Positions 1,895-27,480 of a stretch of DNA of 60,000 nucleotides are shown here, piece after piece; position 1 is the stretch's first letter; each line of letters begins with the position of its first letter. This DNA comes from Bolinopsis microptera. Its lineage: Eukaryota; Ctenophora; Tentaculata; Lobata; Bolinopsidae. A program made the position numbers and the translations under genes. The notes beneath the pieces were generated by a model, which saw only the letters and a program-made list of their open reading frames with translations, was not told the origin of the DNA and made no database searches. Location of the stretch: contig NC_087082.1 in the NCBI RefSeq assembly GCF_026151205.1, positions 14,109,365 through 14,169,364 on the forward strand, read 5' to 3'.

Positions 1895-3606
1895 TTAACT
1901 CGATTAATCTGTTATCTTCTTTGTTGATTTGTGTGCAATTGGGCTGAGTTTAAGAGTTTAGAATAAAGTGCGTGATTTCGCTGAATTTCAAATTTGGTAT
2001 AGCAACTCGAAGTGCAGACTTTTTGAGATCTGATGAAGTATGGCCAACGGGATTGTTACTCATATAATTTCCCGTGATGATTTTTGGACCATACATTGCT
2101 GAATAGCAATCGTGAAGGAAGTCTCACCAGTAGGTTTTATTTAACTAGGCTAAGTTTTCATACGCATATTCTATAGACTATACATTTACTTACTATGATT
2201 TATTAAAGGTTAATTTCTGCCCGATGGGAGTGAGATATTGTTTGGTGTGTGAATTTTTTGATTTTATAAGTTGACTTGAAATCCCTTAAGGGTACCGGCA
2301 AAAAAAAAGCTGGTTTCACAACAACATAAACTTCGGTGCGCAGTCATTTTACTTCTTTCTCCTTGGCCTTAACGAGATTCTTGTATTGTCAAGTCAAGAG
2401 TGTTAGCCGTCAGGGCTCCCGTTGACCAATTTACGTTTAATCCGTTAAATTGGACAACAGGAGTCCTAACGGAGCCCTAAACTTTCGGCCCTGGTGTTAC
2501 TGATCGCAATATAGCGGCGTGGATGTGGATTTAGGCAACGATGGGAAATTGGATAGTGTTTGCTCTCTGGTAGGTTTGACGGTCGTGACCATCAATTTCT
2601 ATAATTTCCACCTGTGGACGTCAGAGCTTGATACAATATAGATAGTATCGTGTGCATATGCTTAGGGTTATGTTCGTATCATTGGAACCCTCTCTGGAGT
2701 GTATCTGTAAACAGGGGAGATGTAGGTCTAGACCTAGTGTTCTGTGTTCTTTCATATTTGTGGAGACTGGAGATGAGACGATGGTGCTAACTGCTCAAGA
2801 TGTAGAGGAACGGAGAAAGGGCTAAACGAACCATGGATTTAACGTTGAAGAAACGCAGATGACTTATACTTACAATCAGACTTTTTTAAATAGTTATTTT
2901 TCTTATGGCTTATGAATAGAACTTCGATCTTAATTTCGCTTTTAGTTTATAAACTTTTTCTTTAATGTATAACAGTATTAGTTGTAGTAGTCATTTTAAA
3001 ATTCTAATAAAACTGTTTTTCTTTTAACTTCAAAAATATCAATAGCTATAAAAACAGTTATATATAAATCTGATTTATTTTTATTGTTACCCTTACTCAC
3101 TGACCAATAGACTCCGACTTCCACCTGTCCACCTACCTCCCAACTCCCATTCTCTTTAACTAATTCAGTTCGAATATTCCAAAATACCCTTTCTATTTTA
3201 ATGAATTTCCGTTTATGAAAGCTTTCTTTGATAATACTAATATTGCTTTTGTAGCTCGGTTTAAAAGTTGAAAGGGGAATTTTGAGTGGAGGCTCTGGGC
3301 TTATACTTTGCGTTTACTTGAGCGATAAATGTAGAGATTGAATGAAGACTGTGGATATATGTGACTAGAAAGACACTTCTTTGTGCTCCAAATGGACTAC
3401 TGATTGTGTTTCATAATCACGTTCCTTTATACGGAAAGCGCCTGAATTGACAAAAGCACGAGATGACAATCTCTCTGCTTGTTTTCCCAAATATAGCAGA
3501 GGGATATAAAATATCAAACACATGTGGAGAGTATACATATTGGAGACAGATATTAATTTTAATAATACCCCCTTAAAAACCAACAATCGTTAATATTAAA
3601 AAACTG
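1895..3606. other. Intergenic stretch, nothing recognised
   Basis: AT-rich sequence with no supportable reading frame. It holds a possible polyadenylation signal, AATAAA at 1962-1967, about 70 bases after the stop of the ORF1-like frame. It separates that frame from the 3' end of the SLC6 gene, which is read from the other strand. Confidence 0.4.
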
Positions 3607-3623
3607 TAAAAATATAAAACTAA

Positions 3624-3993
3624 TTATTTATTATTATTTATTAAATCATACTTCTAGTTTCGGGATAGCCTGTAGCAGGCAACGCCCGATATCTACTGAC
3701 TTACACAAGTGCAAGTAAGCATGTAAATATTATGCCAGGCATGTGGCACCCATTGCGGTAACCATCTATTAAAGTTTTTGATTTTCGCTGTATTACATTG
3801 CACAGCCCCCCATTCCTAAAACACGATTTATCGAGCATTTGGCTGAGTGGACCGGGAGGCTGCATAAATTCTATGGGATCCTTATGCAGAACGTCGACAA
3901 CGCTCACCCCACGACCAGGCAGACAGTGGTATTCGAACTCGCAACCTCACGATTGCAAAGCTGGTGCTCTAACCAACTGCGCTACCTGGCCAT
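3624..3993 (-). mobile_element. tRNA-derived SINE
   Basis: A 370-bp insertion read on the minus strand. It is flanked by a perfect 17-bp target duplication (taaaaatataaaactaa at 3607-3623 and 3994-4010). Its head resembles a tRNA. The box A sequence TAGCGCAGTTGG (3973-3984) matches the consensus fully, and a box-B-like AGTTCGAATAC lies at 3929-3939. The anticodon-loop region reads TTTGCAA. The acceptor stem does not pair, so it is not a working tRNA gene. The body has no homology I recognise and the tail is AT-rich. It inserted across the stop codon of the SLC6 gene and now forms that gene's 3' flank. Confidence 0.8.
3627..3642 (-). promoter_or_regulatory. Candidate polyadenylation signals inside the SINE tail
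   Basis: Two AATAAA hexamers on the minus strand (3637-3642 and 3627-3632) lie about 370 bases after the SLC6 stop codon, within the AT-rich SINE tail. They are the first canonical signals I see downstream of the stop. The present transcript end may therefore be supplied by the transposon. Inference only. Confidence 0.4.
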
Positions 3994-4006
3994 TAAAAAT
4001 ATAAAA

Positions 4007-4273
4007 CTAAGGTACATGGAATTGGATCACTTCACAGTTCCTATCACCACTAAAAAAACGTTCGCTCAGGAAATGCCAAGCTGCAAAGAGAGGCATGGGA
4101 AGAACTGGTAGCATGACCATCACAGCACCCAGAATCTGGGACCACCAAGTGAAGGGCACGTCCTTGGTCCAGTCTTTAGAACCGGTGGGGTTTAGGGGGT
4201 CGCACCCCACGTATGTGGTGTACTGCGGTGGGTTCAGACACGTTTTCACAAGACTCGCTATCAGAATTATTGT
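4007..4273 (-). CDS. SLC6 last exon: TM11, TM12 and stop
   Basis: 88 codons and a TAG at 4007-4009. TM11 is [10 protein letters not shown], followed by [17 protein letters not shown] and W-rich TM12 [21 protein letters not shown]. The tail is short. The stop codon lies in the 17-bp target duplication of the SINE, so the insertion hit the coding end without changing it. Acceptor ATTTCAG. Confidence 0.92.
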   Translation of the reverse strand, partial: TIILIASLVKTCLNPPQYTTYVGCDPLNPTGSKDWTKDVPFTWWSQILGAVMVMLPVLPMPLFAAWHFLSERFFSGDRNCEVIQFHVP

Positions 4274-7200
4274 CTGAAATTGAGCATTTGTCAATGGAGT
4301 AATTTTCGATGAATTAATTGGCAACGAATTAATTGTCAACGAAGTTTAAGTGGAAACCATTGAGTTGTTTTGACTTACAATGACTGCAGGTGATACGAAC
4401 TTCCAGCAGATTTTCCAGTAGACGTGCGGCTGGGACCCCGTCATATACTCTATATCATCACAGATTTTATCCAATCCGTAGAACCACCCTATAGCTATAC
4501 ACTCCGCTACACCTGTGTGGATGGGAATTGTAACTATAGTAACTTGGTAACCTGGATGAGAATTGAGAAGGAAAATGTATTACTAAGCTTAAAATTAAAT
4601 GAGCTTACAATGCAGTAACATATTTTCGTGGTCACACTAGTAATTATAATGAAAAAAGTAAATAAAACACCTATAAAGAGGAGAGGGAGAGCCACGGAGA
4701 AGGTATCCCACAAAACAAAGACATACAGTCCCGACTGGGTACACATGGGTAGTCCAACTAGACAAAGAAATAGACACACCAGTAGACACAGAATCTGAAG
4801 TTAAAGAGTGAGTTCACTACAATTATTATTTCGAGTATTGTTGTCGAAAGACGGTTTATCGGGTGTCAATTGTGCAGATTATTCCACAAATTTTACTGTG
4901 GAGATGTTAATTTGCTTGCCTTCCGCGGTGCTCAATCAATCTAATAATTCTCGCTGCTCAATTTGAATACCTTTATAATATCAATGTACATTGTACAATG
5001 TACGCTATACATACCTCTTTTCTAACTTGACGGAAGAAAGGGTAATCCTGTAAAGGTCCAACACAAGCCTCAATGACCCCAAACTCCGAGTCTATAGCAA
5101 GGAGAATCATCATAAAGAAGAAGGCAGCTGCCCACATCTGAGATAACGGCATCTCTGCTACTGCTGTAGGGTAGGCGATGAAAGCGAGACCTGGACCCCC
5201 CGTCATGTCCTCGACTGGGATTCCTAATTTTGCCTGCAGGAACAAAGTTGAATTTTTTGTGTGATCAGAAAGGTGGTTAAATTTCAAAGCATAACTTTTT
5301 GTAAGCTTCATTTTGCATAATTTTTGAAAAATTCTGTTTTGCCAAGATCGAGAATTTTTAAATTATTTTCAAAAGCTATGCAATTTATGAAATTAAAAGT
5401 GGTGGACGTATAGAAAAACGAAACTGCTTACCTCTCTAAACCCGAGGACAGAGTACACCACTATGCCAGCAAAAACAGAAGTCCCACAGTTGACTAAGGA
5501 AATGATCAGGGCATCTCGCGAGCAGTTGTTCTTTACCGGGTTGTAGGACCCGAAACAGATTATAGCTCCAAATCCTACACCAATACTGAGGGTGTGACAT
5601 TTAGGAGATTTAAAGACCAGATCCTACACCAATACTGAGGGTGTGACATTTAGGAGATTTAAAGACCAGATCCTGCACCAATACTGAGGGTGTGACATTT
5701 AGGAGATTTAAAGACCAGATCCTACACCAATACTGAGGGTGTGACATTTAGGAGATTTAAAGACCAGATCCTACACCAATACTGAGGGTGTGACATTTAG
5801 GAGATTTAAACACCAGATCCTACACCAATACTGAGGGTGTGACATTTAGGAGATTTAAAGACCAGATCCTGCACCAATACTGAGGGTGTGACATTTAGGA
5901 GATTTAAAGACCAGATCCTGCACCAATACTGAGGGTGTGACATTTAGGAGATTTAAACACCAGATCCTGCACCAATACTGAGGGTGTGACATTTAGGAGA
6001 TTTAAAGACCAGATCCTGCACCAATACTGAGGGTGTGACATTTAGGAGATTTAAAGACCAGATCCTGCACCAATACTGAGGGTGTGACATTTAGGAGATT
6101 TAAAGACCAGATCCTACACCAATACTGAGGGTGTGACATTTAGGAGATTTAAAGACCAGATCCTGCACCAATACTGAGGGTGTGACATTTAGGAGATTTA
6201 AAGACCAGATCCTGCACCAATACTGAGGGTGTGACATTTAGGAGATTTAAAGACCAGATCCTGCACCAATACTGAGGGTGTGACATTTAGGAGATTTAAA
6301 GACCAGATCCTGCACCAATACTGAGGGTCAAGGTTGTTTAATACGTATTTGGAGGGACTACGTATTGGAATACGAATACGTATTAATCCTCGAAAATTGA
6401 CGTATTACGACGTATTCTTTATTCAAAAAATTCAAAAATTCAAATATGTTGAGGGGACTGAACTTTAGAAAATGGTCTTAAACTTTGATAATTGCGAGAT
6501 CGTTTTAGGAGCAGCCTCTAATCCCTAATTAGTAATTACTGACGGCTAACAAACTGAAAAATTAATTCCCAGACCGGAGTAGTGCACTGTGAAGCTGACT
6601 GATCTTGACGAACTTCTCGCTCTCTGAACATCAAAATCATTAAAATTAAATATGTATTAATATGTAATTGATAATTTCGCAAAAATTGTTAGCTTATCGG
6701 ATTATCCATGAAATTTGATTACAAATTTAAGTTATCATGTATAACTGCACTCCTTTAATGCATGATCAATGATGAGGGTGGCGCGCAGCTGTAATGTTTA
6801 ATTTTGACAAATCAGCGTATTACGGCGTATTATGGCGTATTCTTGGACGTATTTAACAATCCATAGAAATTACCGTATTCCGGCGTATTACGACGTATTC
6901 TTTATTAGAACCGAATACGTCGTATTCTTTCACGAAAATTTGACGTATTTAACAACCTTGCTGAGGGTGTGACATTTAGGAGATTTAAAGACCAGATCCT
7001 GCACCAATACTGAGGGTGTGACATTTAGGAGATTTAAAGACCAGATCCTGCACCAATACTGAGGGTGTGACATTTAGGAGATTTAAAGACCAGATCCTGC
7101 ACCAATACTGAGGGTGTGACATTTAGGAGATTTAAAGACCAGATCCTGCACAAATATTGAGGGTGTGACATTTAGGAGATTTAAAGACCAGATCCTGCAC

Positions 7201-10200
7201 CAATACTGAGGGTGTGACATTTAGGAGATTTAAAGACCAGATCCTGCACCAATACTGAGGGTGTGACATTTAGGAGATTTAAAGACCAGATCCTGCACCA
7301 ATACTGAGGGTGTGACATTTAGGAGATTTAAAGACCAGATCCTGCACCAATACTGAGGGTGTGACATTTAGGAGATTTAAAGACCAGATCCTGCACCAAT
7401 ACTGAGGGTGTGACATTTAGGAGATTTAAAGACCAGATCCTGCACCAATACTGAGGGTGTGACATTTAGGAGATTTAAAGACCAGATCCTGCACCAATAC
7501 TGAGGGTGTGACATTTAGGAGATTTAAAGACCAGATCCTGCACCAATACTGAGGGTGTGACATTTAGGAGATTTAAAGACCTGATCCTGCACCAATACTG
7601 AGGGTGTGACATTTAGGAGATTTAAAGACCAGATCCTGCACCAATACTGAGGGTGTGACATTTAGGAGATTTAAAGACCAGATCCTGCACCAATACTGAG
7701 GGTGTGACATTTAGGAGATTTAAAGACCAGATCCTGCACCAATACTGAGGGTGTGACATTTAGGAGATTTAAAGACCAGATCCTGCACCAATACTGAGGG
7801 TGTGATATTTAGGAGATTTAAAGACCAGATCCTGCACCAATACTGAGGGTGTGACATTTAGGAGATTTAAAGACCAGATCCTGCACCAATACTGAGGGTG
7901 TGACATTTAGGAGATTTAAAGACCAGATCCTGCACCAATACTGAGGGTGTGACATTTAGGAGATTTAAAGACCAGATCCTGCACCAATACTGAGGGTGTG
8001 ACATTTAGGAGATTTAAAGACCAGATCCTGCACCAATACTGAGGGTGTGACATTTAAGAGATTTAAAGACCAGATCCTGCACCAATACTGAGGGTGTGAC
8101 ATTTAGGAGATTTAAAGACCAGATCCTGCACCAATACTGAGGGTGTGACATTTAGGAGATTTAAAGACCAGATCCTGCACCAATACTGAGGGTGTGACAT
8201 TTAGGAGATTTAAAGACCAGATCCTGCACCAATACTGAGGGTGTGACATTTAGGAGATTTAAAGACCAGATCCTGCACCAATACTGAGGGTGTGACATTT
8301 AGAAGATTTAAAGACCAGATCCTGCACCAATACTGAGGGTGTGACATTTAGGAGATTTAAAGACCAGATCCTGCACCAATACTGAGGGTGTGACATTTAG
8401 GAGATTTAAAGACCAGATCCTACACCAATACTGAGGGTGTGACATTTAGGAGATTTAAAGACCAGATCCTGCACCAATACTGAGGGTGTGACATTTAGGA
8501 GATTTAAAGACCAGATCCTGCACCAATACTGAGGGTGTGACATTTAGGAGATTCAAAGACCAGATCCTACACCAATACTAGGGTGTGACATTTAGGAGAT
8601 TCAAAGACCAGATCCTGCACCAATACTGAGGGTGTGACATTTAGGAGATTTAAAGACCAGATCCTGCACCAATACTGAGGGTGTGACATTTAGGAGATTT
8701 AAAGACCAGATCCTGCACCAATACTGAGGGTGTGACATTTAGGAGATTTAAAGACCAGATCCTACACCAATACTGAGGGTGTGACATTTAGGAGATTTAA
8801 AGACCAGATCCTGCACCAATACTGAGGGTGTGACATTTAGGAGATAAATCCTACACCAATACTGAGGGTGTGACATTTAGGAGATTTAAAGACCAGATCC
8901 TGCACCAATACTGAGGGTGTGACATTTAGGAGATTTAAAGACCAGATCCTACACCAATACTGAGGGTGTGACATTTAGGAGATTTAAAGACCAGATCCTG
9001 CACCAATACTGAGGGTGTGACATTTAGGAGATAAATCCTACACCAATACTGAGGGTGTGACATTTAGGAGATTTAAAGACCAGATCCTACACCAATACTG
9101 AGGGTGTGACATTTATGAGATTCAAAGACCAGATCCTGCACCAATACTGAGGGTGTGACATTTAGGAGATTCAAAGACCAGATCCTGCACCAATACTGAG
9201 GGTGTGACATTTAGGAGATTTAAAGACCAGATCCTACACCAATACTGAGGGTGTGACATTTAGGAGATTCAAAGACCAGATCCTGCACCAATACTGAGGG
9301 TGTGACATTTAGGAGATTCAAAGACCAGATCCTGCACCAATACTGAGGGTGTGACATTTAGGAGATTCAAAGACCAGATCCTGCACCAATACTGAGGGTG
9401 TGACATTTAGGAGATTCAAAGACCAGATCCTGCACCAATACTGAGGGTGTGACATTTAGGAGATTTAAAGACCAGATCCTGCACCAATACTGAGGGTGTG
9501 ACATTTAGGAGATTTAAAGACCAGATCCTACACCAATACTGAGGGTGTGACATTTAGGAGATTTAAAGACCAGATCCTGCACCAATACTGAGGGTGTGAC
9601 ATTTAGGAGATTTAAAGACCAGATCCTGCACCAATACTGAGGGTGTGACATTTAGGAGATTTAAAGACCAGATCCTGCACCAATACTGAGGGTGTGACAT
9701 TTAGGAGATTTAAAGACCAGATCCTGCACCAATACTGAGGGTGTGACATTTAGGAGATTTAAAGACCAGATCCTGCACCAATACTGAGGGTGTGACATTT
9801 AGGAGATTCAAAGACCAGATCCTGCACCAATACTGAGGGTGTGACATTTAGGAGAATTAAAGACCAGATCCTGCACCAATACTGAGGGTGTGACATTTAG
9901 GAGATTTAAAGACCAGATCCTACACCAATACTGAGGGTGTGACATTTAGGAGATTTAAAGACCAGATCCTGCACCAATACTGAGGGTGTGACATTTAGGA
10001 GATTTAAACACCAGATCCTGCACCAATACTGAGGGTGTGACATTTAGGAGATTTAAAGACCAGATCCTGCACCAATACTGAGGGTGTGACATTTAGGAGA
10101 TTTAAAGACCAGATCCTGCACCAATACTGAGGGTGTGACATTTAGGAGATTCAAAGACCAGATCCTACACCAATACTGAGGGTGTGACATTTAGGAGATT

Positions 10201-13200
10201 CAAAGACCAGATCCTGCACCAATACTGAGGGTGTGACATTTAGGAGATTTAAAGACCAGATCCTACACCAATACTGAGGGTGTGACATTTAGGAGATTCA
10301 AAAACCAGATCCTGCACCAATACTGAGGGTGTGACATTTAAGAGATTTAGAGACCAGATCCTGCACCAATACTGAGGGTGTGACATTTAAGAGATTTAAA
10401 GACCAGATCCTGCACCAATACTGAGGGTGTGACATTTAGGAGATTTAAAGACCAGATCCTGCACCAATACTGAGGGTGTGACATTTAGGAGATTCAAAGA
10501 CCAGATCCTGCACCAATACTGAGGGTGTGACATTTAGGAGATTTAAAGACCAGATCCTGCACCAATACTGAGGGTGTGACATTTAGGAGATTTAAACACC
10601 AGATCCTGCACCAATACTGAGGGTGTGACATTTAGGAGATTTAAAGACCAGATCCTGCACCAATACTGAGGGTGTGACATTTAGGAGATTTAAAGACCAG
10701 ATCCTGCACCAATACTGAGGGTGTGACATTTAGGAGATTTAAACACCAGATCCTGCACCAATACTGAGGGTGTGACATTTAGGAGATTTAAACACCAGAT
10801 CCTGCACCAATACTGAGGGTGTGACATTTAGGAGATTTAAAGACCAGATCCTGCACCAATACTGAGGGTGTGACATTTAGGAGATTTAAACACCAGATCC
10901 TACACCAATACTGAGGGTGTGACATTTAGGAGATTTAAAGACCAGATCCTACACCAATACTGAGGGTGTGACATTTAGGAGATTTAAAGACCAGATCCTG
11001 CACCAATACTGAGGGTGTGACATTTAGGAGATTTAAAGACCAGATCCTACACCAATACTGAGGGTGTGACATTTAGGAGATTTAAAGACCAGATCCTGCA
11101 CCAATACTGAGGGTGTGACATTTAGGAGATTTAAAGACCAGATCCTGCACCAATACTGAGGGTGTGACATTTAGGAGATTTAAACACCAGATCCTGCACC
11201 AATACTGAGGGTGTGACATTTAGGAGATTTAAAGACCAGATCCTGCACCAATACTGAGGGTGTGACATTTAGGAGATTTAAAGACCAGATCCTGCACCAA
11301 TACTGAGGGTGTGACATTTAGGAGATTTAAAGACCAGATCCTACACCAATACTGAGGGTGTGACATTTAGGAGATTTAAAGACCAAATCCTGCACCAATA
11401 CTGAGGGTGTGACATTTAGGAGAATTAAAGACCAGATCCTGCACCAATACTGAGGGTGTGACATTTAGGAGATTTAAAGACCAGATCCTGCACCAATACT
11501 GAGGGTGTGACATTTAGGAGATTTAAAGACCAGATCCTGCACCAATACTGAGGGTGTGACATTTAGGAGATTTAAAGACCAGATCCTGCACCAATACTGA
11601 GGGTGTGACATTTAGGAGATTTAAAGACCAGATCCTGCACCAATACTGAGGGTGTGACATTTAGGAGATTTAAAGACCAGATCCTGCACCAATACTGAGG
11701 GTGTGACATTTAGGAGATTTAAAGACCAGATCCTGCACCAATACTGAGGGTGTGACATTTAGGAGATTTAAAGACCAGATCCTGCACCAATACTGAGGGT
11801 GTGACATTTAGGAGATTTAAAGACCAGATCCTGCACCAATACTGAGGGTGTGACATTTAGGAGATTTAAAGACCAGATCCTGCACCAATACTGAGGGTGT
11901 GACATTTAGGAGATTTAAAGACCAGATCCTGCACCAATACTGAGGGTGTGACATTTAGGAGATTCAAAGACCAGATCCTGCACCAATACTGAGGGTGTGA
12001 CATTTAGGAGATTTAAAGACCAGATCCTGCACCAATACTGAGGGTGTGACATTTAGGAGATTTAAAGACCAGATCCTGCACCAATACTGAGGGTGTGACA
12101 TTTAGGAGATTTAAAGACCAGATCCTGCACCAATACTGAGGGTGTGACATTTAGGAGATTTAAAGACCAGATCCTGCACCAATACTGAGGGTGTGACATT
12201 TAGGAGATTTAAAGACCAGATCCTACACCAATACTGAGGGTGTGACATTTAGGAGATTTAAAGACCAGATCCTACACCAATACTGAGGGTGTGACATTTA
12301 GGAGATTTAAAGACCAGATCCTGCACCAATACTGAGGGTGTGACATTTAGGAGATTTAAAGACCAGATCCTGCACCAATACTGAGGGTGTGACATTTAGG
12401 AGATTTAAACACCAGATCCTGCACCAATACTGAGGGTGTGACATTTAGGAGATTTAAAGACCAGATCCTGCACCAATACTGAGGGTGTGACATTTAGGAG
12501 ATTTAAAGACCAGATCCTGCACCAATACTGAGGGTGTGACATTTAGGAGATTTAAAGATCAGATCCTGCACCAATACTGAGGGTGTGACATTTAGGAGAT
12601 TTAAAGACCAGATCCTACACCAATACTGAGGGTGTGACATTTAGGAGATTTAAAGACCAGATCCTACACCAATACTGAGGGTGTGACATTTAGGAGATTT
12701 AAAGACCAGATCCTGCACCAATACTGAGGGTGTGACATTTAGGAGATTTAAAGACCAGATCCTGCACCAATACTGAGGGTGTGACATTTAGGAGATTTAA
12801 AGACCAGATCCTGCACCAATACTGAGGGTGTGACATTTAGGAGATTTAAAGACCTGATCCTGCACCAATACTGAGGGTGTGACATTTAGGAGATTTAAAG
12901 ACCAGATCCTGCACCAATACTGAGGGTGTGACATTTAGGAGATTTAAAGACCAGATCCTGCACCAATACTGAGGGTGTGACATTTAGGAGATTTAAAGAC
13001 CAGATCCTGCACCAATACTGAGGGTGTGACATTTAGGAGATTTAAAGACCAGATCCTGCACCAATACTGAGGGTGTGACATTTAGGAGATTTAAAGACCA
13101 GATCCTGCACCAATACTGAGGGTGTGACATTTAGGAGATTTAAAGACCAAATCCTGCACCAATACTGAGGGTGTGACATTTAGGAGAATTAAAGACCAGA

Positions 13201-16200
13201 TCTTGCATCAATACTGAGGGTGTGACATTTAGGAGATTTAAAGACCAGATCCTGCACCAATACTGAGGGTGTGACATTTAGGAGATTTAAAGACCAGATC
13301 CTACACCAATACTGAGGGTGTGACATTTAGGAGATTTAAAGACCAAATCCTGCACCAATACTGAGGGTGTGACATTTAGGAGATTTAAAGACCAGATCCT
13401 GCACCAATACTGAGGGTGTGACATTTAGGAGATTTAAAGACCAGATCCTGCACCAATACTGAGGGTGTGACATTTAGGAGATTTAAAGACCGGATCCTGC
13501 ACCAATACTGAGGGTGTGACATTTAGGAGATTCAAAGACCAGATCCTACACCAATACTGAGGGTGTGACATTTAGGAGATTTAAAGACCAGATCCTGCAC
13601 CAATACTGAGGGTGTGACATTTAGGAGATTTAAAGACCAGATCCTACACCAATACTGAGGGTGTGACATTTAGGAGATTTAAAGACCAGATCCTACACCA
13701 ATACTGAGGGTGTGACATTTAGGAGATTTAAAGACCAGATCCTACACTTAACTAGGATTTTTCGTATATTAGTATTACTATATCAGTAAATATATATGTA
13801 TATATAATTGTTATATAATTGTACAGCTACAAAATATATATATATCAACGCAGCCTAGCGGGTGGAACAATATATCACTAGATATATAATATGTACTTAT
13901 ATAATATACGTGCTCTCCAAAGCATACACGAAAAATTCACATCAGGAAATTGTAAAATTTTAAAGATCAAATAGAATTCGACTCCATCTATCTTCTTATA
14001 CAATAATCATAATGCTTAATTTTGTCTACAATTTCAAATGACTTGAGTGAAGTAGAAATTAATTTATACTCTTCCAGTACCTGTAAAAAATCTGACCAGC
14101 AGCATCCATCCAAATAAAAGGATCCAGCAGTTTCTCAAAATCGGGTGTGAAAAACACTTTAATACCATTACCTGACGAAGAGTATGTGAAAAACACTAAT
14201 ATTTCTAGCAGTATTATACTAGAGTATTTCCAGCAGTATTATACTAGAGTCATTGAAATGATCATCAAATCAAACTTCAGAAGGGAGGACTGTTAACTGG
14301 CTTAGAAAAAGTGAATCAATTGATATCTAGTCCACCCCTTGTCCCATTCACTCTGGCGACTAGTTCCCTTGTCCCATTCGCTCTGGCGACTAGTTCCCTT
14401 GTCCCATTCGCTCTGGCGACTAGTTCCCTTGTCCCATTCGCTCTGGCGACAAGTTTCCTTGTCCCATTCGCTCTGGCGACTAGTTCCCTTGTCCCATTCG
14501 CTCTGGCGACTAGTTCCCTTGTCCCATTCGCTCTGGCGACTAGTTCCCTTGTCCCATTCGCTCTGGCGACTAGTTCCCTTGTCCCATTCGCTCTGGCGAC
14601 TAGTTTCCTTGTCCCATTCGCTCTGGCGACTAGTTTCCTTGTCCCATTCGCTCTGGCGACTAGTTCCCTTGTCCAATTCGCTCTGGCGACTAGTTCCCTT
14701 GTCCCATTCGCTCTGGCGACTAGTTCCCTTGTCCCATTCGCTCTGGCGACAAGTTTCCTTGTCCCATTCGCTCTGGCGACTAGTTCCCTTGTCCCATTCG
14801 CTCTGGCGACTAGTTCCCTTGTCCCATTCGCTCTGGCGACTAGTTCCCTTGTCCCATTCGCTCTGGCGACTAGTTCCCTTGTCCCATTCGCTCTGGCGAC
14901 TAGTTTCCTTGTCCCATTCGCTCTGGCGACTAGTTTCCTTGTCCCATTCGCTCTGGCGACTAGTTCCCTTGTCCAATTCGCTCTGGCGACTAGTTCCCTT
15001 GTCCCATTCGCTCTGGCGACTAGTTCCCTTGTCCCTACCTGCTCCTTCCAGAGTGACACCTCTGATGAACAGTGCTATGAGTACTACGTAAGGGAATGTA
15101 GCTGTGAAGTACGCTGCTTTACCACTCGACTGTATACCCTGTTGATATCATTTAACTCAACAACACTGACGCAAAGTTGAGAACAAGCTAGGTAGTCAGC
15201 TGTTCTGTAAAATCTTTATCATGATCATAATTGTCATGTCAATTGTATTTTATAATTGTTTTATCGTGACTGATGTAAGAGAAATTAAACTGACAGTAAT
15301 TTGATACCTTAAACAAACACATGTAAGTAAGGACCCATCCAATGAACCAACAGCCAGCTATTGCCGGGATAAACTCTCCCGTATCATCAATACTTGGGGT
15401 CGCTTGAAGGCTTGATTCGTACCACAGGTGCCTAATAATACAACCTGGATTAGTTTGACTGTCTACTGGAAAGGAGACGTATATATTCGGAAAGGAGACT
15501 TAGATATTCGTCTTGAAATTAACAGGACAAATTAGGAACGCAGGTTGCCGACTGATCTTAGAACAGTCAGTCAATTCGAGCGGTTTAATTTAAAAGTAAT
15601 TCCTGAAACTTGACCATTTGAATTCAATAAGATTTTCTTGTGCTAAATGTTCAGTGCTGGTCCATTACCTTAACCTCTTAACATTGTACTGAAATACATA
15701 ATACAATTTACTCACGCGGCAGAGTCGTTCATACAACACATATCGTTTTTATCCGCACACTCTTGCCACGGAAGGGGACTCTGGTGAATATTTTTAATAT
15801 TAATATTAATATTAATATTAATATTAATGATATAATATAATTTTATTATGCATAAAATTGTTTAATTGATACTGTCGGATCGCCTTTTATCTTGAAGCTA
15901 ATGATTACTTATAATGATACAAAAAAATCGATATAACAACTTGTTTTTCAGATTATTCTGAGCTAAAATGTTATTACAACAATTCTTAACCAAATTGGTT
16001 AATTAAAAATAAAAAGCGATATTTTTTTCGAAAGTGGGAATGGTAACATTTAAAAAAACATATTTCATCTGCCGATGCCCGGGAATAATCATAAACAATT
16101 GTTGCATGTCCCCTTAAGAGAGATCTTACCGAGAATGACAAGTAGAAATAGTACATACACCAGGTCATCACCATAGGAAAATAGGCTGTCATTTGTAAAC

Positions 16201-17989
16201 AAACGATTAACTGGCCTATACCAATACCCTGCAGAAAGTTTCGTGAACTACTGTGATGAAGTAATTGTTGTGATTAAATAACTGTCATAAAACAGACTGC
16301 TTGCATTCTGTACCAGTACAACAGATTTATCAGTAGTCAATGACTAGACAGGGTTATTGAAAATTACAAAGAATAAAATGGCGTCTGGACTTGGGACCAG
16401 CTCATAGTACATTTCATTAATGCCCTCTGAAAACCATTCTGCTAGCTCAAAATATTTGTTATATAGTAGTGTTGAAAGTATTAATTTATTAATACTTAAT
16501 AGTATTTATCTCTCAGTTCATACAGAGGATCAATAACTCATGTTCTTACCTTAAAGTAAGGTCGAATACTTGTCCATATTTTTATAAATCCCATTTGCAT
16601 TTTCTGGCCTAAAGCCAGTTCTAGATAGAACAGAGGTAGCCCTTCAACCAATAACATGATCGCATACGGAAGGAGAAAAGCTCCGCCTCCATTTTTCTGT
16701 GCTAGATATGGAAACCTGAAAGAAAATAAAATTTCGGATAAGTAAACCTCCTATATAAGTAAACCTCCTATAACCTCCTAACTATAAACTTAAAGGGGAA
16801 GTTGGTCGTTTAGCTCCGGACAGTCTATGCACGGTCCCTGCACGGTCCCTGCAAATGAACACTTGATGCACTACTACAAACTTAAAGTTAAACTACTATA
16901 GTGTATAGGCAGAAAAAACTTGAACCTAAAATTGTTCCAAAAATAATTTAAGAGGTCATTAGTATCATCAACGATATAAAACGTGTATGAACTTTGTGAG
17001 ATCCAAACATTCCCTTAAAGGGCTTAAAAGCCACAACAAACCACAACACCAATGACCAACGACCAGACGTGGGCGCCGCCGCCGGTACGCCGCCGCCGCC
17101 GATAAATTCGACACGCCGCCGCCGCCGATAAATTTCGATCGGCGCGCCGAATGTCAAATTTAACATCAGTTGTGCCGTTATCGTAGCCAAATATCTGCTT
17201 GTTGCTGAACAGAGTATAAATAGTTGCTCTTTCAAATCGTCATTCAATTTTGAAATGAACCTTAGCATACAAAGTGTACATTAGCTTATAAGATGTCAGT
17301 CAGTGGTACAATGACTATGTTGCCAAAAAATTGGTTCCAGCCGCCGATACGCCGCCGAGTGAAATACGGCCTCACGCCGCCGCTGCAGCATTTTCGGCGG
17401 CGCCCACGTCTGCCAACGACCTAACCAAGTACCGACCTCCAAACGTTGCCAGTACCCACAGCAAAACCAATAGCAGCCAGTAGGAACTCCATGTGGTTAC
17501 CCCATCTCTCTCGGGGCTTTCCCTCCTCTTCTTCCTCTTTCTTCTCTAACTCGGTCTCCTCTTCTTCCTCTTTCTTCTCTAACTCGGCCTAGAGAGGAGT
17601 ATGTAGAGTGAGAAATTAAGAACTGAGAGAGTGTTTCTAGGATTATAGTGTAATGATGTTTTCTGATTTGAAGTTACCGGTTACGATTTCCCGTATTCAC
17701 TATTCATGGCGTTGAGGGACGAAAATTTATCGTGATTTTAGGCAAATATTCGCGCAAAGGTAAACGTATAAATAAAGGAAATTGCGGAAAAATTTAAATC
17801 TCACGGGGTATCCAGTATCCACCGGTTAAATTTCAAATGAAATGTTACAAAATGCCGAGGCAGTGGAATAGTCAAAGTTCTAATTCCGAATATATATTCA
17901 TAAGTTATGAAGTCTCCAGACATGTTTACCATTTGCATCGGAGTATCTCCATTTTCCCGGAGTTGTCCCGAATTTTGTAATACAACCAT
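4007..17989 (-). CDS. SLC6-family Na+/Cl- dependent transporter, whole gene (spliced)
   Basis: A plasma-membrane symporter of the SLC6/SNF family. It uses Na+ and Cl- gradients to import a small amine or amino-acid-type substrate. Exons on the minus strand: (17989-17930, tentative), 17588-17437, 16715-16550, 16228-16130, 15780-15716, 15458-15308, 15138-15039, 14171-14081, 5585-5432, 5233-5015, 4794-4671, 4512-4379, 4273-4007. All introns are GT-AG and all phases agree. This gives 573 residues without the tentative first exon and about 593 with it, which is normal for the family. All twelve membrane segments can be placed. The chloride-site residues are present: Tyr in FLLPY, Gln and Ser in GQIFYS, Asn and Ser in VNCGTS. 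So is the Na2-site DS in AIDSEFG. The TM1 position that is Asp in monoamine carriers is Gly (AVGTGN), which suggests an amino-acid-like substrate. Oddities: AVGTGN instead of AVGLGN, a Glu-rich duplicated N-terminus, and minisatellites in two introns. Confidence 0.92.
4379..4512 (-). CDS. SLC6 exon: TM10
   Basis: It begins with GT completing Gly, then [32 protein letters not shown] and [12 protein letters not shown]. This is the family's WFYGxxxFxxDIxxM and WxxCWxxxSP. Acceptor CCACACAG, donor ATT|GTAAGT. Confidence 0.95.
4671..4794 (-). CDS. SLC6 exon: TM9
   Basis: 41 codons plus one base. [16 protein letters not shown] matches the family's FLxGLPMVTxGGxYV, and [12 protein letters not shown] follows. 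Acceptor AACTTCAG, donor ATAG|GTGTTT. The Gly codon is completed by the next exon. Confidence 0.94.
5015..5233 (-). CDS. SLC6 exon: loop 4 and TM8
   Basis: 73 codons, phase 0 at both ends. [17 protein letters not shown] is the family's loop-4 signature. [14 protein letters not shown] is TM8 with the Na2-site Asp-Ser, and FFRQVRKE is the loop before TM9. Acceptor TTCCTGCAG, donor GAG|GTATGT. Confidence 0.97.
5432..5585 (-). CDS. SLC6 exon: TM6 to TM7
   Basis: Begins T ATT GGT GTA GGA, completing Ser and then [15 protein letters not shown], the unwound TM6 region. It continues with [18 protein letters not shown] and TM7 to LGFRE. The Asn and Ser of VNCGTS are chloride and Na+ site residues. 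The true acceptor, CACACCCTCAG ending at 5586, is the unit from which the neighbouring 49-bp array was copied. Donor GAG|GTAAGC. Confidence 0.96.
5568..13748. repeat. 49-bp minisatellite copied from the SLC6 TM6 intron-exon junction
   Basis: About 150 head-to-tail 49-bp units, over 95% alike by eye. They fill the intron between SLC6 exons 14081-14171 and 5432-5585. Read on the minus strand, a unit holds 31 bp of intron end (TAAATCTCCT...CACACCCTCAG) and the first 18 bp of the next exon. The unit nearest the gene is the real junction (acceptor at 5586). Variants: A or G in ccTRCACC, ttTaaag or ttCaaag, aaaGacc or aaaCacc. A 9-bp-deleted unit occurs twice, near 8841 and 9028, 187 bp apart, showing local duplication of blocks of four units. 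A 632-bp MITE interrupts the array. Confidence 0.97.
6329..6960. mobile_element. hAT-type MITE inside the 49-bp array
   Basis: 632 bp with terminal inverted repeats CAAGGTTGTTTAATACGT and ACGTATTTAACAACCTTG. The flanking 8-bp target duplication is ctgagggt (6321-6328 and 6961-6968), the hAT superfamily size. There is no coding capacity. ACGTATT and GCGTATT motifs recur densely near both ends, as in hAT subterminal transposase-binding regions. A near copy of the terminal repeat lies internally near 6849. It split one 49-bp unit at its decoy splice acceptor. Confidence 0.88.
13749..14080. other. Remaining non-repeat part of the 8.5-kb SLC6 intron
   Basis: AT-rich sequence with TA microsatellite stretches near 13790-13850. 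It is the original 5' part of the intron, ending at the donor of the exon at 14081. No gene or element recognised. Confidence 0.6.
14081..14171 (-). CDS. SLC6 exon: extracellular loop 3 to TM6 start
   Basis: 29 codons, [17 protein letters not shown] through [10 protein letters not shown], plus two bases of a Ser codon. It matches the family's TPDFxKLLDPxVWxDAAxQIFFS. The Gln is a chloride-site residue. The donor ACAG|GTACTGG opens the 8.5-kb intron that carries the 49-bp array. The Ser codon, a Na+ and Cl- ligand, is completed by the first base of the next exon. Confidence 0.95.
14207..14250. repeat. Two-copy 25-bp tandem duplication in an SLC6 intron
   Basis: agcagtattatactagagt occurs at 14207-14225 and again at 14232-14250. 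A small intronic slippage duplication upstream of the exon at 14171. Confidence 0.85.
14328..15036. repeat. 30-bp minisatellite at the SLC6 TM5-exon donor, with 300-bp higher order
   Basis: About 23.5 units of 30 bp (core CCCATTCGCTCTGGCGACTA) run through the intron up to two bases from the 5' splice site of the exon at 15039. Variants repeat every 300 bp: gtccAattcg at 14671 and 14971, and gacAagttt near 14449 and 14749. The array therefore grew as 10-unit blocks. Because 30 is divisible by three, long open frames appear in several frames on both strands. They are by-products. Confidence 0.97.
15039..15138 (-). CDS. SLC6 exon: intracellular loop 2 and TM5
   Basis: It begins [17 protein letters not shown], matching the family's KGxKxSGKVVYxTATFPY, and ends with [10 protein letters not shown]. 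Starting at 15138 restores the conserved Gly-Ile after the Lys of the previous exon. An in-frame AG nine bases later is possible but would delete them. The donor G|GTAGGG lies two bases from the 30-bp minisatellite, so the array starts at the splice site. Confidence 0.95.
15308..15458 (-). CDS. SLC6 exon: loop 2 and TM4
   Basis: One base completes an Ala codon, then 50 codons run from [12 protein letters not shown] to [10 protein letters not shown]4 is [19 protein letters not shown] later AG at 15445 would break the frame, so I chose the acceptor just before 15458. Donor AAG|GTATCA. Confidence 0.87.
15716..15780 (-). CDS. SLC6 exon: start of extracellular loop 2
   Basis: It encodes [21 protein letters not shown], with the family's LPWxxC motif and the second cysteine needed for the loop-2 disulfide. 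Donor GC|GTGAGT. The upstream polypyrimidine tract is weak because the intron end is a TAATAT microsatellite. The remaining two bases pair in phase with the next exon only if that exon begins at 15458. Confidence 0.88.
15792..15828. repeat. TAATAT microsatellite
   Basis: About six copies of a taatat hexamer in the intron just upstream of SLC6 exon 15716-15780. It replaces the usual polypyrimidine tract of that acceptor. Confidence 0.9.
16130..16228 (-). CDS. SLC6 exon: TM3
   Basis: 33 codons from [10 protein letters not shown] to YYFYLSFS. The family pattern is a GIG start, TM3 and a W-x-x-Y-Y pair, here WCMYYFY. Acceptor TTCTGCAG, donor TCG|GTAAGA, phase 0 at both ends. TM3 lines the substrate pocket in SLC6 proteins. 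Confidence 0.92.
16550..16715 (-). CDS. SLC6 exon: TM1 second half and TM2
   Basis: It continues the split Arg codon into [17 protein letters not shown], the most conserved stretch of the family. The chloride-site Tyr is in FLLPY. TM2 follows, with [14 protein letters not shown]. Acceptor TTTCAG at 16716, donor AAG|GTAAGA at 16549. 166 bp, ending in phase 0. Confidence 0.96.
17064..17412. mobile_element. GC-rich hAT-type MITE in an SLC6 intron
   Basis: 349 bp with 18-bp perfect terminal inverted repeats CAGACGTGGGCGCCGCCG and an 8-bp target duplication ccaacgac (17056-17063 and 17413-17420). The ends are packed with gccgcc triplets and gccgataaattcga motifs, which contrast with the AT-rich surroundings. 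It sits about 24 bp from the splice donor of the exon at 17437. No coding capacity. Confidence 0.88.
17437..17588 (-). CDS. SLC6 exon: acidic N-terminus and TM1 first half
   Basis: Acceptor CTCTCTAG at 17589, donor AG|GTCGGT at 17436. It encodes two tandem copies of [10 protein letters not shown], produced by a 33-bp direct duplication, then [16 protein letters not shown] and AVGTGNVW(R). In the family the last motif is nearly always GLGNVWR and forms the unwound part of TM1 that holds Na+ and substrate. Here the Leu is Thr. The monoamine-type Asp is absent (Gly). Confidence 0.93.
17930..17989 (-). CDS. Tentative SLC6 first coding exon
   Basis: An ATG at 17987-17989 opens 20 codons ending ...DTPMQM, followed by the donor ATG|GTAAAC. 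The exon ends in phase 0, which is what the next exon needs, and the intron would be 341 bp, like its neighbours. The SLC6 N-terminus is not conserved, so homology cannot confirm it. Another upstream exon is possible. Confidence 0.3.
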
Positions 17990-22117: not shown

Positions 22118-23282
22118 TACAGTCAACTATAGATGGCAAATGACACGATTGGGTGCTGGAAGTTTGATTTGGGTCGGAGGAAGCTTACAACAGACAGTTT
22201 GGACGAAATTTTTGCCCACAAACCAATAACTCAATTAAATGATGATGGTATCATACCAAATTAGAGTGCTGGAAGTCAAAATCTCGAAATATTACACTGT
22301 CCCATACTCTGTCCCATTTTCAGTTTTTGAAGCTGAAATTTCCAGGGCCGAAATTTTACAGTTTCTACCGAATTTCTGATCTGCAACCAATTAGTCAGTC
22401 AACTATAGATGGCAAATGACACGATTGGGGTGCTGGAAGTTTGATTTGGGTCGGAGGAAGCTCACAGCAGAAATCTTAACAAAACGAAACGTTGTATTTT
22501 CAAAACTCTGTCCCATTTTCAGATATGAAATTTTCTGAACACACATTTGACAGTTTGGATGAAATTTTTGTCCACAAACTAATTAGTCAGTTAATTGATG
22601 ATGGTATGATACCAAATTGGAGTGCTGGAAGTCAAAATCTCGAAAAAAATTGGAAAATCATAATGTCCCATACTCTGTCTCATTTTCAGTTTTTGAAGCA
22701 GAAATTTCCAGGGCCGAAATTTTACAGTTTTTACCGAATTTCTGATCTGCAACCAATTAGTCAGTCAACTATAGATGGCAAATGACACGATTGGGGTGCT
22801 GGAAGTTTGATTTGGGTCGGAGGAAGCTCACAGCAGAAATCTTAACAAAACGAAACGTTGTATTTTCAAAACTCTGTCCCATTTTCAGATATGACATTTT
22901 CTGAACACACATTTGACAGTTTGGATGAAATTTTTGTCCACAAACTAATTACTCAGTTAATTGATGATGGTATGATACCAAATTGGAGTGCTGGACGTCA
23001 AAATCTCGAAAAAATTGGAAAATCATAATGTCCCATACTCTGTCCCATTTTCAGTTTTTGAAGCTGAAATTTCCAGGGCCGAAATTTTACAGTTTTGACC
23101 GAATTTCTGATCTGCAACCAATTAGTCAGTCAACTATAGATGGCAAATGACACGATTGGGGTGCTGGAAGTTTGATTTGGGTCAGAGGAAGCTCACAGCA
23201 GAAATCTTAACAAAACGAAAAGTTGTATTTTCAAAACTCTGTCCCATTTTCAGATATGAAATTTTCTGAACACACATTTGAC
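22118..23282 (+). repeat. 366-bp satellite, first block
   Basis: About three tandem units, starting at cagtcaactatagatggc. The first unit has an internal deletion of roughly 100 bp. The unit is an ancient dimer. Its two halves share ctctgtcccattttcag, tgaaattt, acagttt, the pair gatgatggt or gatggca, and ggagtgctggaagtcaaaa or ggggtgctggaagtttga. The spacings of 167-174 and 192-199 bp average 183 bp. Each unit holds a 97-codon open frame that is not conserved as protein. Confidence 0.95.
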
Positions 23283-24564
23283 ATCAAATAACGGAGTAGT
23301 TCGCTGTTTATTAGTCTCATGATTGAAATACTGATATCTGGATATTATCCGGTTGGAAGAGACAAGGACAAGTGAAACAAGGAAGTTAGGAGTAAGGGCA
23401 AATTTTCGGCGTCAACGCCATCTTCAGGCTAAAATTGTTATAAATGTTAGTATATAATAAATGCTTCTATACTAGTTAAAATGCTAAATTAAAATTACAC
23501 ACACTGAATACAGGTTACATCAAATGGTATTGTACATTACATTGAAAATAGTGATGTACACACGTTTTACACTCTGTCCAAGTACATAATATCTACTGAA
23601 CAGCAGGGTCGTGTGCTATTTGTTTAAATTTGTCTTTGAATATGTTGTAAAAGAAATCCCTTAAGCTTCTCGCACTCTTCTTTGTTATTGATACTAGGTT
23701 TAAATAAATTAATGTAGTAAGCTTCTGTCACTTTACGTTTAATGGTGCTATATAAGTTAATTTCTAAAATATCGAAGGAAATATCTGGTTCTATGTTATC
23801 GTGAAACTCTGAATAATGAGCAGCCAACGCATTATCAGGATAGGTTAAAGGCCTGTTGACTGCTCTTCGATGCTCTGAAAATCTATCGTGTGCTGTTCTA
23901 CTCGTTTCCCCTATATATAGCTCTTGACATAATTTACACGTAACTTTGTATATGACACATTTTGGTTTGCAGTCGTGATTTGTTGTGATGAGTGGACATA
24001 TGATACAGTTTGGTATGGTGCAGTGTGGTTTGTCGTGTGGTCGTGATTAACATAAGATCTCTGAGAGTTTCTTACCTGGTGTGAATATGAATTTGACCGG
24101 TAAGTTGTGTGAGAGGGCAAATTGAGTGACTTCTTTGGAAAATGGCTCGTTGATGAATGGTAGAGTGCATGTTACGTGGTCGGTATCTTGTATGATGTAG
24201 TCCATCTCAAACGAGGACCCATACCAGTTGCTCAAATGGGAAATTGACTATCTTCTTTAAGAGAATTTAAACAAATAGCACACGACCCTGCTGTTCAGTA
24301 GATATTATGTACTTGGACAGAGTGTAAAACGTGTGTACATCACTATTTTCAATGTAATGTACAATACCATTTGATGTAACCTGTATTCAGTGTGTGTAAT
24401 TTTAATTTAGCATTTTAACTAGTATAGAAGCATTTATTATATACTAACATTTATAACAATTTTAGCCTGAAGATGGCGTTGACGCCGAAAATTTGCCCTT
24501 ACTCCTAACTTCCTGGTTTCACTTGTCCTTGTCTCTTCCAACCGGATAATATCCAGATATCAGT
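23283..24564 (-). mobile_element. Penelope-like element, inverted pair, copy A
   Basis: A 1.28-kb insertion in the satellite, flanked by an 11-bp duplication acacatttgac (23272-23282 and 24565-24575). The left arm reads on the minus strand and carries the GIY-YIG end of a Penelope-like retroelement. From about 24262 the sequence switches to the plus-strand 3' tail of the same element, so the two ends form a long inverted repeat of about 290 bp with a ~640-bp loop. Compared with copy B the plus arm has lost about 900 bp. Confidence 0.85.
23624..24235 (-). pseudogene. GIY-YIG endonuclease fragment of a Penelope-like element, copy A
   Basis: Minus-strand coding remnant running from a MDYIIQDTDHVTCTLPF segment through the cysteine-rich linker and GIY-YIG domain to the C-terminus ending IQRQI. 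It matches copy C almost base for base. A TCA-to-TAA change just after SEILC stops the frame. It has no start and lacks the reverse transcriptase. Confidence 0.85.
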
Positions 24565-27480
24565 ACACATTTGACAGTTTGGATGAAATTTTTGCCCACA
24601 AACCAATAAGTCAATTAAATGATGATGGTATGATACCAAATTGGAGTGCTGGAAGTCAAAATCTCGGAAAAAATTAGAAAATCATAATGTCCCATACTCT
24701 GTCTCATTTTCAGTTTTTGAAGCTGAAATTTCCAGGGCCGAAATTTTACAGTTTCCGAATTTCTGATCTGCAACCAATTAGTCAGTCAACTATAGATGGC
24801 AAATGACACGATTGGGGTGCTGGAAGTTTGATTTGGGTCGGAGGAAGCTCACAGCAGAAATCTTAACAAAACGAAAAGTTGTATTTTCAAAACTCTGTCC
24901 CATTTTCAGATATGAAATTTTCTAAACACACATTTGACAGTTTAGATGAAATTTTTGCCCACAAACCAATAAGTCAGTTAAATGATGATGGTATCATACC
25001 AAATTGGAGTGCTGGAAGTCAACATCTCGAAAAATCACACTGTCCCATACTCTGTCCCATTTTCAGTTTTTGAAGCAGAAATTTCCAGGGCCGAGATTTT
25101 ACAGTTTTTACTGAATTTCTGATCTGCAACCAATTAGTCAGTCAACTATAGATGGCAAATGACACGATTGGGGTGCTGGAAGTTTTATTTGTTTCGGCGG
25201 AAGCTCACAGCAGAAATCTTAACAAAGCGAAACGTTGTATTTTCAAAACTCTGTCCCATTTTCAGATATGAAATTTTCTGAACACACATTTGACAGTTTG
25301 GATGAAATTTTTGCCCACAAACCAATAAGTTAGTTAAATGATGATGATATGATACCAAATTGGAGTGCTGGAAGTCAAAATCTCGAAAAAAATTGGAAAA
25401 TCATAATGTCCCATACTCTGTCCCATTTTCAGTTTTTGAAGCTGAAATTTCCAGGGCCGAAATTTTACAGTTTTTACCGAATTTCTGATCTGCAACCAAT
25501 TAGTCAGTCAACTATAGATGGCAAATGACACGATTGGGTTGCTGGAAGTTTGATTTGGGTCGGAGGAAGCTCACAGCAGAAATCTTAACAAAGCGAAACG
25601 TTGTATTTTCAAAACTCTGTCCCATTTTCAGATATGAAATTTTCTGAACACATTTGACAGTTTGGATGAAATTTTTTCGCCCACAAACCAATAAGTCAAT
25701 TAAATGATGATGGTATGATACCAAATTGGAGTGCTGGAAGTCAAAATCTCGGAAAAAATTGGAAAATCATAATGTCCCATACTCTGTCCCATTTTCAGTT
25801 TTTGAAGCTGAAATTTCCAGGGCCGAAATTTTACAGTTTTGACCGAATTTCTGATCTGCAACCAATTAGTCAGTCAACTATAGATGGCAAATGACACGAT
25901 TGGGGTGCTGGAAGTTTGATTTGGGTCGGAGGAAGCTCACAGCAGAAATCTTAACAAAACGAAACGTTGTATTTTCAAAACTCTGTCCCATTTTCAGATA
26001 TGAAATTTTCTGAACACACATTTGACAGTTTGGATGAAATTTTTGCCCACAAACCAATAAGTCAATTAAATGATGATGGTATGATACCAAATTGGAGTGC
26101 TGGAAGTCAAAATCTCGGAAAACATTGGAAAATCATAATGTCCCATACTCTGTCTCATTTTCAGTTTTTGAAGCTGAAATTTCCAGGGCCGAAATTTTAC
26201 AGTTTTTACCGAATTTCTGATCTGCAACCAATTAGTCAGTCAACTATAGATGGCAAATGACACGATTGGGGTGCTGGAAGTTTGATTTGGGTCGGAGGAA
26301 GCTCACAGCAGAAATCTTAACAAAACGAAAAGTTGTATTTTCAAAACTCTGTCCCATTTTCAAATACGAAATTTTCTGAACACACATTTGACAGTTTGGA
26401 TGAAATTTTTGCCCACAAACCAATAAGTCAATTAAATGATGATGGTATGATACCAAATTGGAGTGCTGGAAGTCAAAATCTCGGAAAAAATTGGAAAATC
26501 ATAATGTCCCATACTCTGTCTCATTTTCAGTTTTTGAAGCTGAAATTTCCAGGGCCGAAATTTTACAGTTTTTACCGAATTTCTGATCTGCAACCAATTA
26601 GTCAGTCAACTATAGATGGCAAATGACACGATTGGGGTGCTGGAAGTTTGATTTGGGTCGGAGGAGGCTCACAGCAAAAATCTTAACAAAACGAAAAGTT
26701 GTATTTTCAAAACTCTGTCCCATTTTCAGATATGAAATTTTCTAAACACACATTTGACAGTTTAGATGAAATTTTTGCCCACAAACCAATAAGTCAGTTA
26801 AATGATGATGGTATCATACCAAATTGGAGTGCTGGAAGTCAACATCTCGAAAAATCACACTGTCCCATACTCTGTCCCATTTTCAGTTTTTGAAGCAGAA
26901 ATTTCCAGGGCCGAGATTTTACAATTTTTACCGAATTTCTGATCTGCAACCAATTAGTCAGTCAACTATAGATGGCAAATGACACGATTGGGGTGCTGGA
27001 AGTTTTATTTGGGTCGGTGGAAGCTCACAGCAGAAATCTTAACAAAGCGAAACGTTGTATTTTCAAAACTCTGTCCCATTTTCAGATATGAAATTTTCTG
27101 AACACACATTTGACAGTTTGGATGAAATTTTTGCCCACAAACCAATAAGTTAGTTAAATGATGATGATATGATACCAAATTGGAGTGCTGGAAGTCAAAA
27201 TCTCGAAAAAAATTGGAAAATCATAATGTCCCATACTCTGTCCCATTTTCAGTTTTTGAAGCTGAAATTTCCAGGGCCGAAATTTTACAGTTTTGACCGA
27301 ATTTCTGATCTGCAACCAATTAGTCAGTCAACTATAGATGGCAAATGACACGATTGGGTTGCTGGAAGTTTGATTTGGGTCAGAGGAAGCTCACAGCAGA
27401 AATCTTAACAAAGCGAAAAGTTGTATTTTCAAAACTCTGTCCCATTTTCAGATATGAAATTTTCTGAACACACATTTGAC
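24565..27480 (+). repeat. 366-bp satellite, second block with higher-order structure
   Basis: About eight tandem units, a few percent apart. A shortened variant with catctcgaaaaatcacactg occurs at ~25024 and ~26844, 1820 bp apart, which shows a five-unit higher-order repeat. Units next to the Penelope insertion share private variants (gggtcagagg at 23181 and 27379), so insertion and satellite were duplicated together. Confidence 0.96.

Follow-up and report, generated by a model that had tools for sequence, protein, structure and literature searches.

A splice-acceptor minisatellite in an SLC6 gene of the ctenophore Bolinopsis microptera, and junction-spanning arrays in other genes of the same genome

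How a gene can carry about 150 near-identical copies of one of its own 3' splice sites ahead of the exon that this site serves, and still have an open reading frame, is the question raised by an SLC6 transporter gene of the ctenophore Bolinopsis microptera. The gene lies on the minus strand at 4007-17565 of a 60,000-nucleotide stretch of DNA (assembly GCF_026151205.1, contig NC_087082.1, positions 14,109,365 to 14,169,364 of the forward strand), here called the window, in whose coordinates positions are given unless another locus is named. A first-pass annotation made from the letters alone had placed about 150 decoy acceptors at 5568-13748, and this was confirmed, with 152 decoys in an array at 5568-13747 that has one 632-bp interruption. 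The explanation that we consider rather probable is that a duplication of the junction grew into a minisatellite, one of many such arrays, and that the last acceptor is used through exon definition, the decoys being mostly inert.

The array consists of head-to-tail 49-bp units with 97-98% matches according to Tandem Repeats Finder (TRF), and is a minisatellite by definition (tandem units of 10-100 bp). Each unit comprises 31 bp of the intron end, CAG included, and the first 18 bp of exon 8; the sum first given, 31 bp plus CAG plus 18 bp, would be 52, the CAG lying inside the 31. TRF and a fuzzy scan place an exon-side part of 15.5 units at 5568-6328 (minus strand), whose last unit is the true acceptor with nucleotides 1-18 of exon 8, and a main part of about 139 units at 6961-13747 (minus strand), whose distal end is the partial unit GTGTAGGATCTGG. 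The fuzzy scan found 153 copies of the junction. Exon 8 itself begins at the last of these, 5585, and the other 152 are the decoys, one of them half of a unit split by an insertion at 6329-6960. The step between neighbouring copies is 49 bp in 148 of 152 cases. With the true copy counted, the A of the acceptor is kept in 153/153 copies and the G in 152/153; AG is intact in 151 of the 152 decoys, and nearly every unit bears the splice site. The claim that amplification of this gene's acceptor junction produced the array was borne out, 116 of the 152 decoys being identical to the true junction over -31..+8 (148/152 over -15..+6).

Units identical across the full 49 bp number 89 of 153. Altogether 24 variants of the unit alternate in mixed order, and there are also variants with deletions. 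Exon position +9 is C in 124/153 units and position +15 is C in 147/153, whereas true exon 8 has T at both (5568-5585 versus 5586-13747). A higher-order period of 147 bp given by TRF was rejected, the string of unit variants having no clear three-unit period. A 23-base core of the unit, with up to three mismatches, has 155 matches in the genome (264.65 Mb) and none in a reversed control, which excludes a chance origin of the array; 154 of the matches are inside the window, all on the gene strand, and the remaining one is a three-mismatch match on another contig (C3).

The host gene is intact. Twelve exons were placed, and exons 2-12 join with the 3' part of exon 1 as a single open frame (the upstream end of exon 1 is approximate; exon 10 has three in-frame candidate donors, of which the first, 4671, was taken, and its end is uncertain). 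The 524-amino-acid product of exons 2-12 matches PF00209 (SNF) at positions 25-523 of 524 (E 6.6e-162), a full-length SNF domain, and its closest solved structures are GABA transporter 1 entries. Exon 7 (14081-14171, minus strand) is followed by the donor GTACTG from 14080, and exon 8 (5432-5585, minus strand, 154 nt) has a weak acceptor and a strong donor from 5431, in agreement with the coordinates first proposed for both donors and for the exon start. The two exons join in phase 2 (AG|T, translating as ...FYS|IGVGFG...). Exon 8 we take to cover the region of transmembrane segments 6 and 7 (TM6-TM7) of the family. Intron 7 (5586-14080, minus strand) has 8495 bp, the introns measured in this gene being 721, 321, 349, 257, 169, 867, 8495 and 198 bp, and exon 8 is accordingly of the class with a long upstream (8495 nt) and a short downstream (198 nt) intron. 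A genome search for a retrocopy showing the spliced exon 7/8 junction gave two matches, both of them (2/2) the two exons themselves.

In a paralogue (L001) this phase-2 intron is also present, with a length of about 280 bp (3044-3326 of that locus), and lacks the 49-bp unit; the unit core, at up to five mismatches, has no match in any of 49 fetched loci. The paralogous exon begins TGTTGGGGTGGGATTTGG after the shared intron and no unit is present there, for which reason the exon sequence is taken as older than the array. That tandem duplication had created a new intron was considered and rejected, the intron position being common to the paralogue and the array sitting inside an old intron. As a feature of its own, the paralogue has a tandemly duplicated exon 8 (3327-3480 and 3534-3687, with a 53-bp intron between them and both copies open), and mutually exclusive use of the two copies, altering the TM6-TM7 part, is possible.

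The array may owe its start to a short repeat. Its intron-distal end, GTGTAGGATCTGG, and positions +6..+18 of exon 8, GTGTAGGATTTGG, differ in one letter of 13 bp, and the C found at +15 in most copies is the intronic letter. Judging from these letters, the array probably began with a slip between the two 13-bp near-repeats, one in the intron and one in the exon, 49 bp apart. A 49-bp tandem duplication over the intron 7/exon 8 junction would then have been expanded by unequal exchange into a minisatellite of ~150 units. Intron 7 is long because of the array, since array and insertion make up all but 333 bp of it; its starting length would have been about 0.36 kb (these 333 bp and the 31 bp of one unit), and the growth to 8.5 kb, about 25-fold, has left the gene frame intact. 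The insertion at 6329-6960 is a 632-bp element within one unit, with terminal inverted repeats of ~18 bp beginning CAAGGTTGTT and an 8-bp target duplication, ACCCTCAG; presumably it is a hAT-like miniature inverted-repeat transposable element (MITE). It has six further full-length genomic copies at 98-99% identity, and the family looks young. The 49-bp array is older than this insertion, which later split one unit.

The array had been treated as unique, which it is not. Junction-spanning arrays, called by inspection, were sought in 16 other SLC6 loci (within L001-L018, chosen from family matches after the window array had been seen, with some matches left out), and in 19 kinesin loci (a subset of matches) and six CCT loci (single-exon genes left out) that were picked before their repeats were looked at. 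They are present in 7/16 of the other SLC6 loci (8/17 with the window; seven independent arrays, paralogue pairs counted once) and in 5/19 kinesin loci (seven arrays). None of the six CCT loci has one; three arrays are present there, of which one stops 3 nt short of a likely exon start and another about 20-25 nt short. The SLC6 arrays comprise 13 acceptors in L003 (unit CACTACAG|GTATG), 28 donors in L004 (781-2282), a donor in L005 with two copies by pattern and 2.4 by TRF, 19 donors in L002/L013 and five in the paralogue L012, and, in L016 and L017, three and ten acceptors and three and three donors. Among the kinesins there are two donors and 35 acceptors in L034, seven acceptors in L035, 52 donors and 112 acceptors in L037 (the acceptor unit holding just 3 exon nt), two donors in L041 and 25 donors in L042. 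AG or GT is kept in every copy found in these 14 other array rows, by fuzzy patterns allowing up to two substitutions, from which heavily changed copies could escape. Paralogue pairs differ in array copy number (19 versus 5, 3 versus 10, 12 versus 7), a fourth paired array being equal at 3 and 3.

Several of these loci have further peculiarities. The 53-bp unit of L004 (781-2282) consists of an acceptor (TTACAG), an exon end of ~27 nt and a donor (GTACTA), giving 28 micro-exon-like units. In L037 a 26-bp unit, TTACTTGTAG|GTA, is repeated 112 times at 2687-5597 ahead of a kinesin exon, with the acceptor followed directly by GT in a ratchet-like arrangement. A 66-bp array in L007 (4484-5263, 12 copies) and L008 (3066-3517, 7 copies) includes what looks like the start codon of the gene together with its first codons (ATGGGCGATGTTGACATA), so that a series of short frames precedes the real one. 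Finally, L014 (1327-9437) and L015 are copies on contigs C10 and C53 that are 96% identical over 8.2 kb, and C53 may be an unplaced haplotype. Two of four iGluR loci taken from the genome were compared with the PDB, and for both the three best entries are those of the ML032222a iGluR, ML identifiers being those of Mnemiopsis; 4zdm, from Pleurobrachia, ranks fourth for one locus and far lower for the other.

Are junctions special sites for such arrays? Within the kinesin loci, 24-mers repeated in the same locus make up 3493/13724 in introns, 7/118 at junctions and 9/3728 in exon interiors (junctions were placed automatically, and the 118 are fewer than the exon ends); the junction repeats are 4/41 at donors and 3/77 at acceptors, one of the seven being due to an exon copy (L026) and not to an array. 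In the CCT loci the corresponding figures are 594/2477, 0/39 and 0/2480. By a seed test in which arrays were collapsed by a rough rule and exon ends were approximate, 7 of the 23 arrays, a small number, touch a junction versus 3.5 expected from random seeding (P about 0.07); nine had been counted, but in two of them (L037 881-943 and L026 502-563, in gene orientation) the match to the domain extended past the exon and they were discounted, and the uncorrected nine would give P 0.01. That junctions attract arrays is not claimed, given 7 versus 3.5 and given that by area junctions are repeated less than intron interiors, and a sparing of essential genes is unsupported (CCT 0/39 versus kinesin 7/118 junctions, Fisher P 0.19). 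The data fit general intron minisatellites running on across junctions. In Hormiphora, a relative, 13% of the genome consists of TRF repeats (PMC8527503). The notable points are the tolerance and the scale of the arrays.

Tolerance may follow from the strengths of the sites. Scores were taken from a matrix of 112 acceptors, 10 of them in the window gene and 102 placed automatically in kinesins and CCT. On this scale the acceptor of exon 8 reaches 2.0, the 5th percentile, and the decoy median is equal; 74% of other intronic AGs score below it. The word decoys had overstated their strength, the copied acceptor being weak. GTs in the unit, in its T variant and at the unit boundary score -3.4 to 1.7, versus 3.1 for the lowest of 66 true donors; at 10.6, the donor of exon 8 lies above the 75th percentile. 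The decoys come earlier in the transcript than the true acceptor, the copy at 5585 being the last transcribed, as had been proposed, and no unit has a donor-like GT ahead of the real donor. Since the copied acceptor is weak, the unit holds no donor-like GT and the exon 8 donor is strong, exon definition should favour the last acceptor, and the dependence on the donor at 5431 put forward in the first-pass annotation is consistent with the two site scores.

On this basis introns rich in minisatellites would let arrays cross splice junctions wherever the exon itself remains whole. The site would be defined across the exon, the weak acceptor being functional only beside the real exon with a strong donor 154 nt away, and the decoys would be mostly inert for want of a nearby donor of their own and of the rest of the exon. 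The longer intron itself would shift recognition toward exon definition, so that small arrays are predicted to be more harmful than large ones. For competing equal 3' sites in human genes, intron proximity decides when introns are short, and exon definition is the behaviour of human exons whose upstream intron is long and whose downstream intron is short (PMC9225289). Taken with the introns of 8495 and 198 bp around exon 8, the human proximity data lead to the prediction that decoys are used most when copies are few. The proximity rule, as described there, is one for like-strength sites and comes from natural human site pairs, not from arrays (PMC9225289).

Several points weigh against this account. 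The C at +9 in 124/153 units creates a second AG at +11 that scores 5.97, above the 2.0 of the true site; the +11 AG of true exon 8, with T at +9, scores 2.8, the stronger one occurring in decoys only. Use of certain decoys would produce exons of 203 and 252 nt, which is still an ordinary exon length. Other acceptor arrays have average or strong sites (L035 at the 87th, L003 at the 63rd and L034 at the 48th percentile), so a weak site cannot be the general reason for tolerance. With human 3' sites where both introns are long, upstream preference is reduced and not reversed (PMC9225289), and the human rule is carried over by analogy to a ctenophore whose own threshold between intron and exon definition may differ.

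In a test for selection on the decoys, the AG/GT cores of nine arrays have 1 variant type versus 3.8 expected by rotation (12% of rotations are as low), and a wider window has 6 versus 11.6 expected (9% as low). A stronger signal from a hand tally of column means was dropped, the means being driven by a few variable columns. There is no clear evidence that the decoy AG/GT is either purged or preserved.

Decoy use could instead be a function of the array. Exon 7 translated into decoy 1, 2, 3 or 10 meets the same stop 8 codons past the junction codon, and choice of a decoy would be ruinous; a share of transcripts might be joined to these poison acceptors and degraded, array length setting the dose of transporter and varying between individuals. 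The near-complete retention of AG in decoys transcribed ahead of the true site and the copy-number differences of three paralogue pairs are as such a rheostat would have it, but the copied acceptor is weak with no donor-like GT after it in the unit, the decoy cores lack a clear sign of conservation and copy number is equal in one of four paired arrays, and we regard this explanation as unlikely. That the array silences the SLC6 gene or is killing it, as 152 decoy junctions in an 8.5-kb intron (versus 169-867 bp for the other measured introns) might suggest, is harder still to credit when all placed exons are open, the SNF match is full-length and the frame is clean even though the array predates the insertion of a young-looking family.

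The opposite idea is that the array aids splicing, either by offering a stretch of branch points and AGs on which the machinery can land or by letting a long intron be removed in recursive (ratchet) steps; it draws on AG|GT units in some other arrays (13 in L003, and TTGTAG|GTA in 112 copies in L037). The window unit, however, reads AG|TATTGG where recursive splicing calls for AG followed by a GTRAGT-like donor; no donor is regenerated or usable, the GTs scored lie below the lowest true donor, and the stepwise splicing proposed at first is unsupported. It is moreover the array itself that makes the intron long, and a splicing aid seems very improbable. Equally little credence is given to a copy number that is mostly an assembly artefact: long homogeneous arrays assemble poorly and more than half of the units are identical, but the 24 variants in mixed order, the deletion variants, the insertion within one unit and the similar arrays found at other junctions all speak for real copies. 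Duplication of the junction, with use of the last acceptor through exon definition, is accordingly preferred.

Elsewhere in the window, a second minisatellite (14336-15035, minus strand, by TRF) of 23 units of 30 bp occupies 700 bp of the 867-bp intron 6, beginning at +4 of that intron's donor. It is open in the exon 6 frame (281 amino acids from stop to stop), and a failed intron 6 donor would add a 10-amino-acid repeat. Tandem repeats of 366 bp at 22193-23283 and 24565-27481 lie near three near-identical open frames (23624-24046, 27822-28265 and 28370-29329), which we take to resemble the GIY-YIG end of Penelope-like elements. A tRNA-like short interspersed element suspected near 3920-3990 was discarded, ARAGORN having found 0 tRNAs in the window.

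To our knowledge, studies of how one of several identical splice sites is chosen have mostly used two or three competitors. The arrays described here form a natural series beside real exons, with 2, 3, 7, 10, 13, 19, 25, 28, 35, 52, 112 and ~150 near-identical donors or acceptors, and are natural tests of splice-site choice, the more so as paralogue pairs differ in copies (19/5, 3/10, 12/7). More speculatively, and with considerable doubt on our part, junctions in this ctenophore might be a standing source of minisatellites in which a growing array turns recognition of the flanking exon from intron-defined into exon-defined; harm from decoys would be maximal at 2-5 copies, arrays would ratchet to 50-150 copies of a working site in functional genes, and residual decoy use would make copy number a heritable dial on output. 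Bolinopsis Iso-Seq data exist and have been used for annotation (PMC10232365). They could directly test exon definition, first-come choice and the load on nonsense-mediated decay.

The first-pass annotation knew of no described case of such a minisatellite. Among the literature matches listed, no title concerns acceptor arrays this large or junction minisatellites of ctenophores, subscription journals being largely outside the search; related cases have, however, been described. The minisatellite of human IFI6 reportedly supplies multiple splice donor sites, according to the title of a 1995 study by Turri et al. Like the window array, the minisatellite of IFI6 (6-16/G1P3) lies at an exon-intron junction and has units that bear a working splice signal of the host gene, two downstream repeat units being named as splice donors (PMC4526556). 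IFI6 differs in concerning donors of one gene, with use in RNA shown (PMC4526556), whereas the arrays of B. microptera include acceptors and donors, reach up to about 153 copies and occur in several genes. In duplicated human genes, the tandem repeats located at exon-intron boundaries average four 30-bp units, and 27 intron modifications are reported (PMC2812944); they resemble the present arrays as minisatellite expansions that alter introns at such boundaries, and differ in that they can form novel introns, whereas the array described here ends in the old junction. In potato RdRp, an intron was gained by tandem duplication across an intron-exon boundary, a junction-crossing duplication that, as here, copied branch site, tract and AG, but that was a single event giving a new intron and no array, unlike the window array (PMC4974935).

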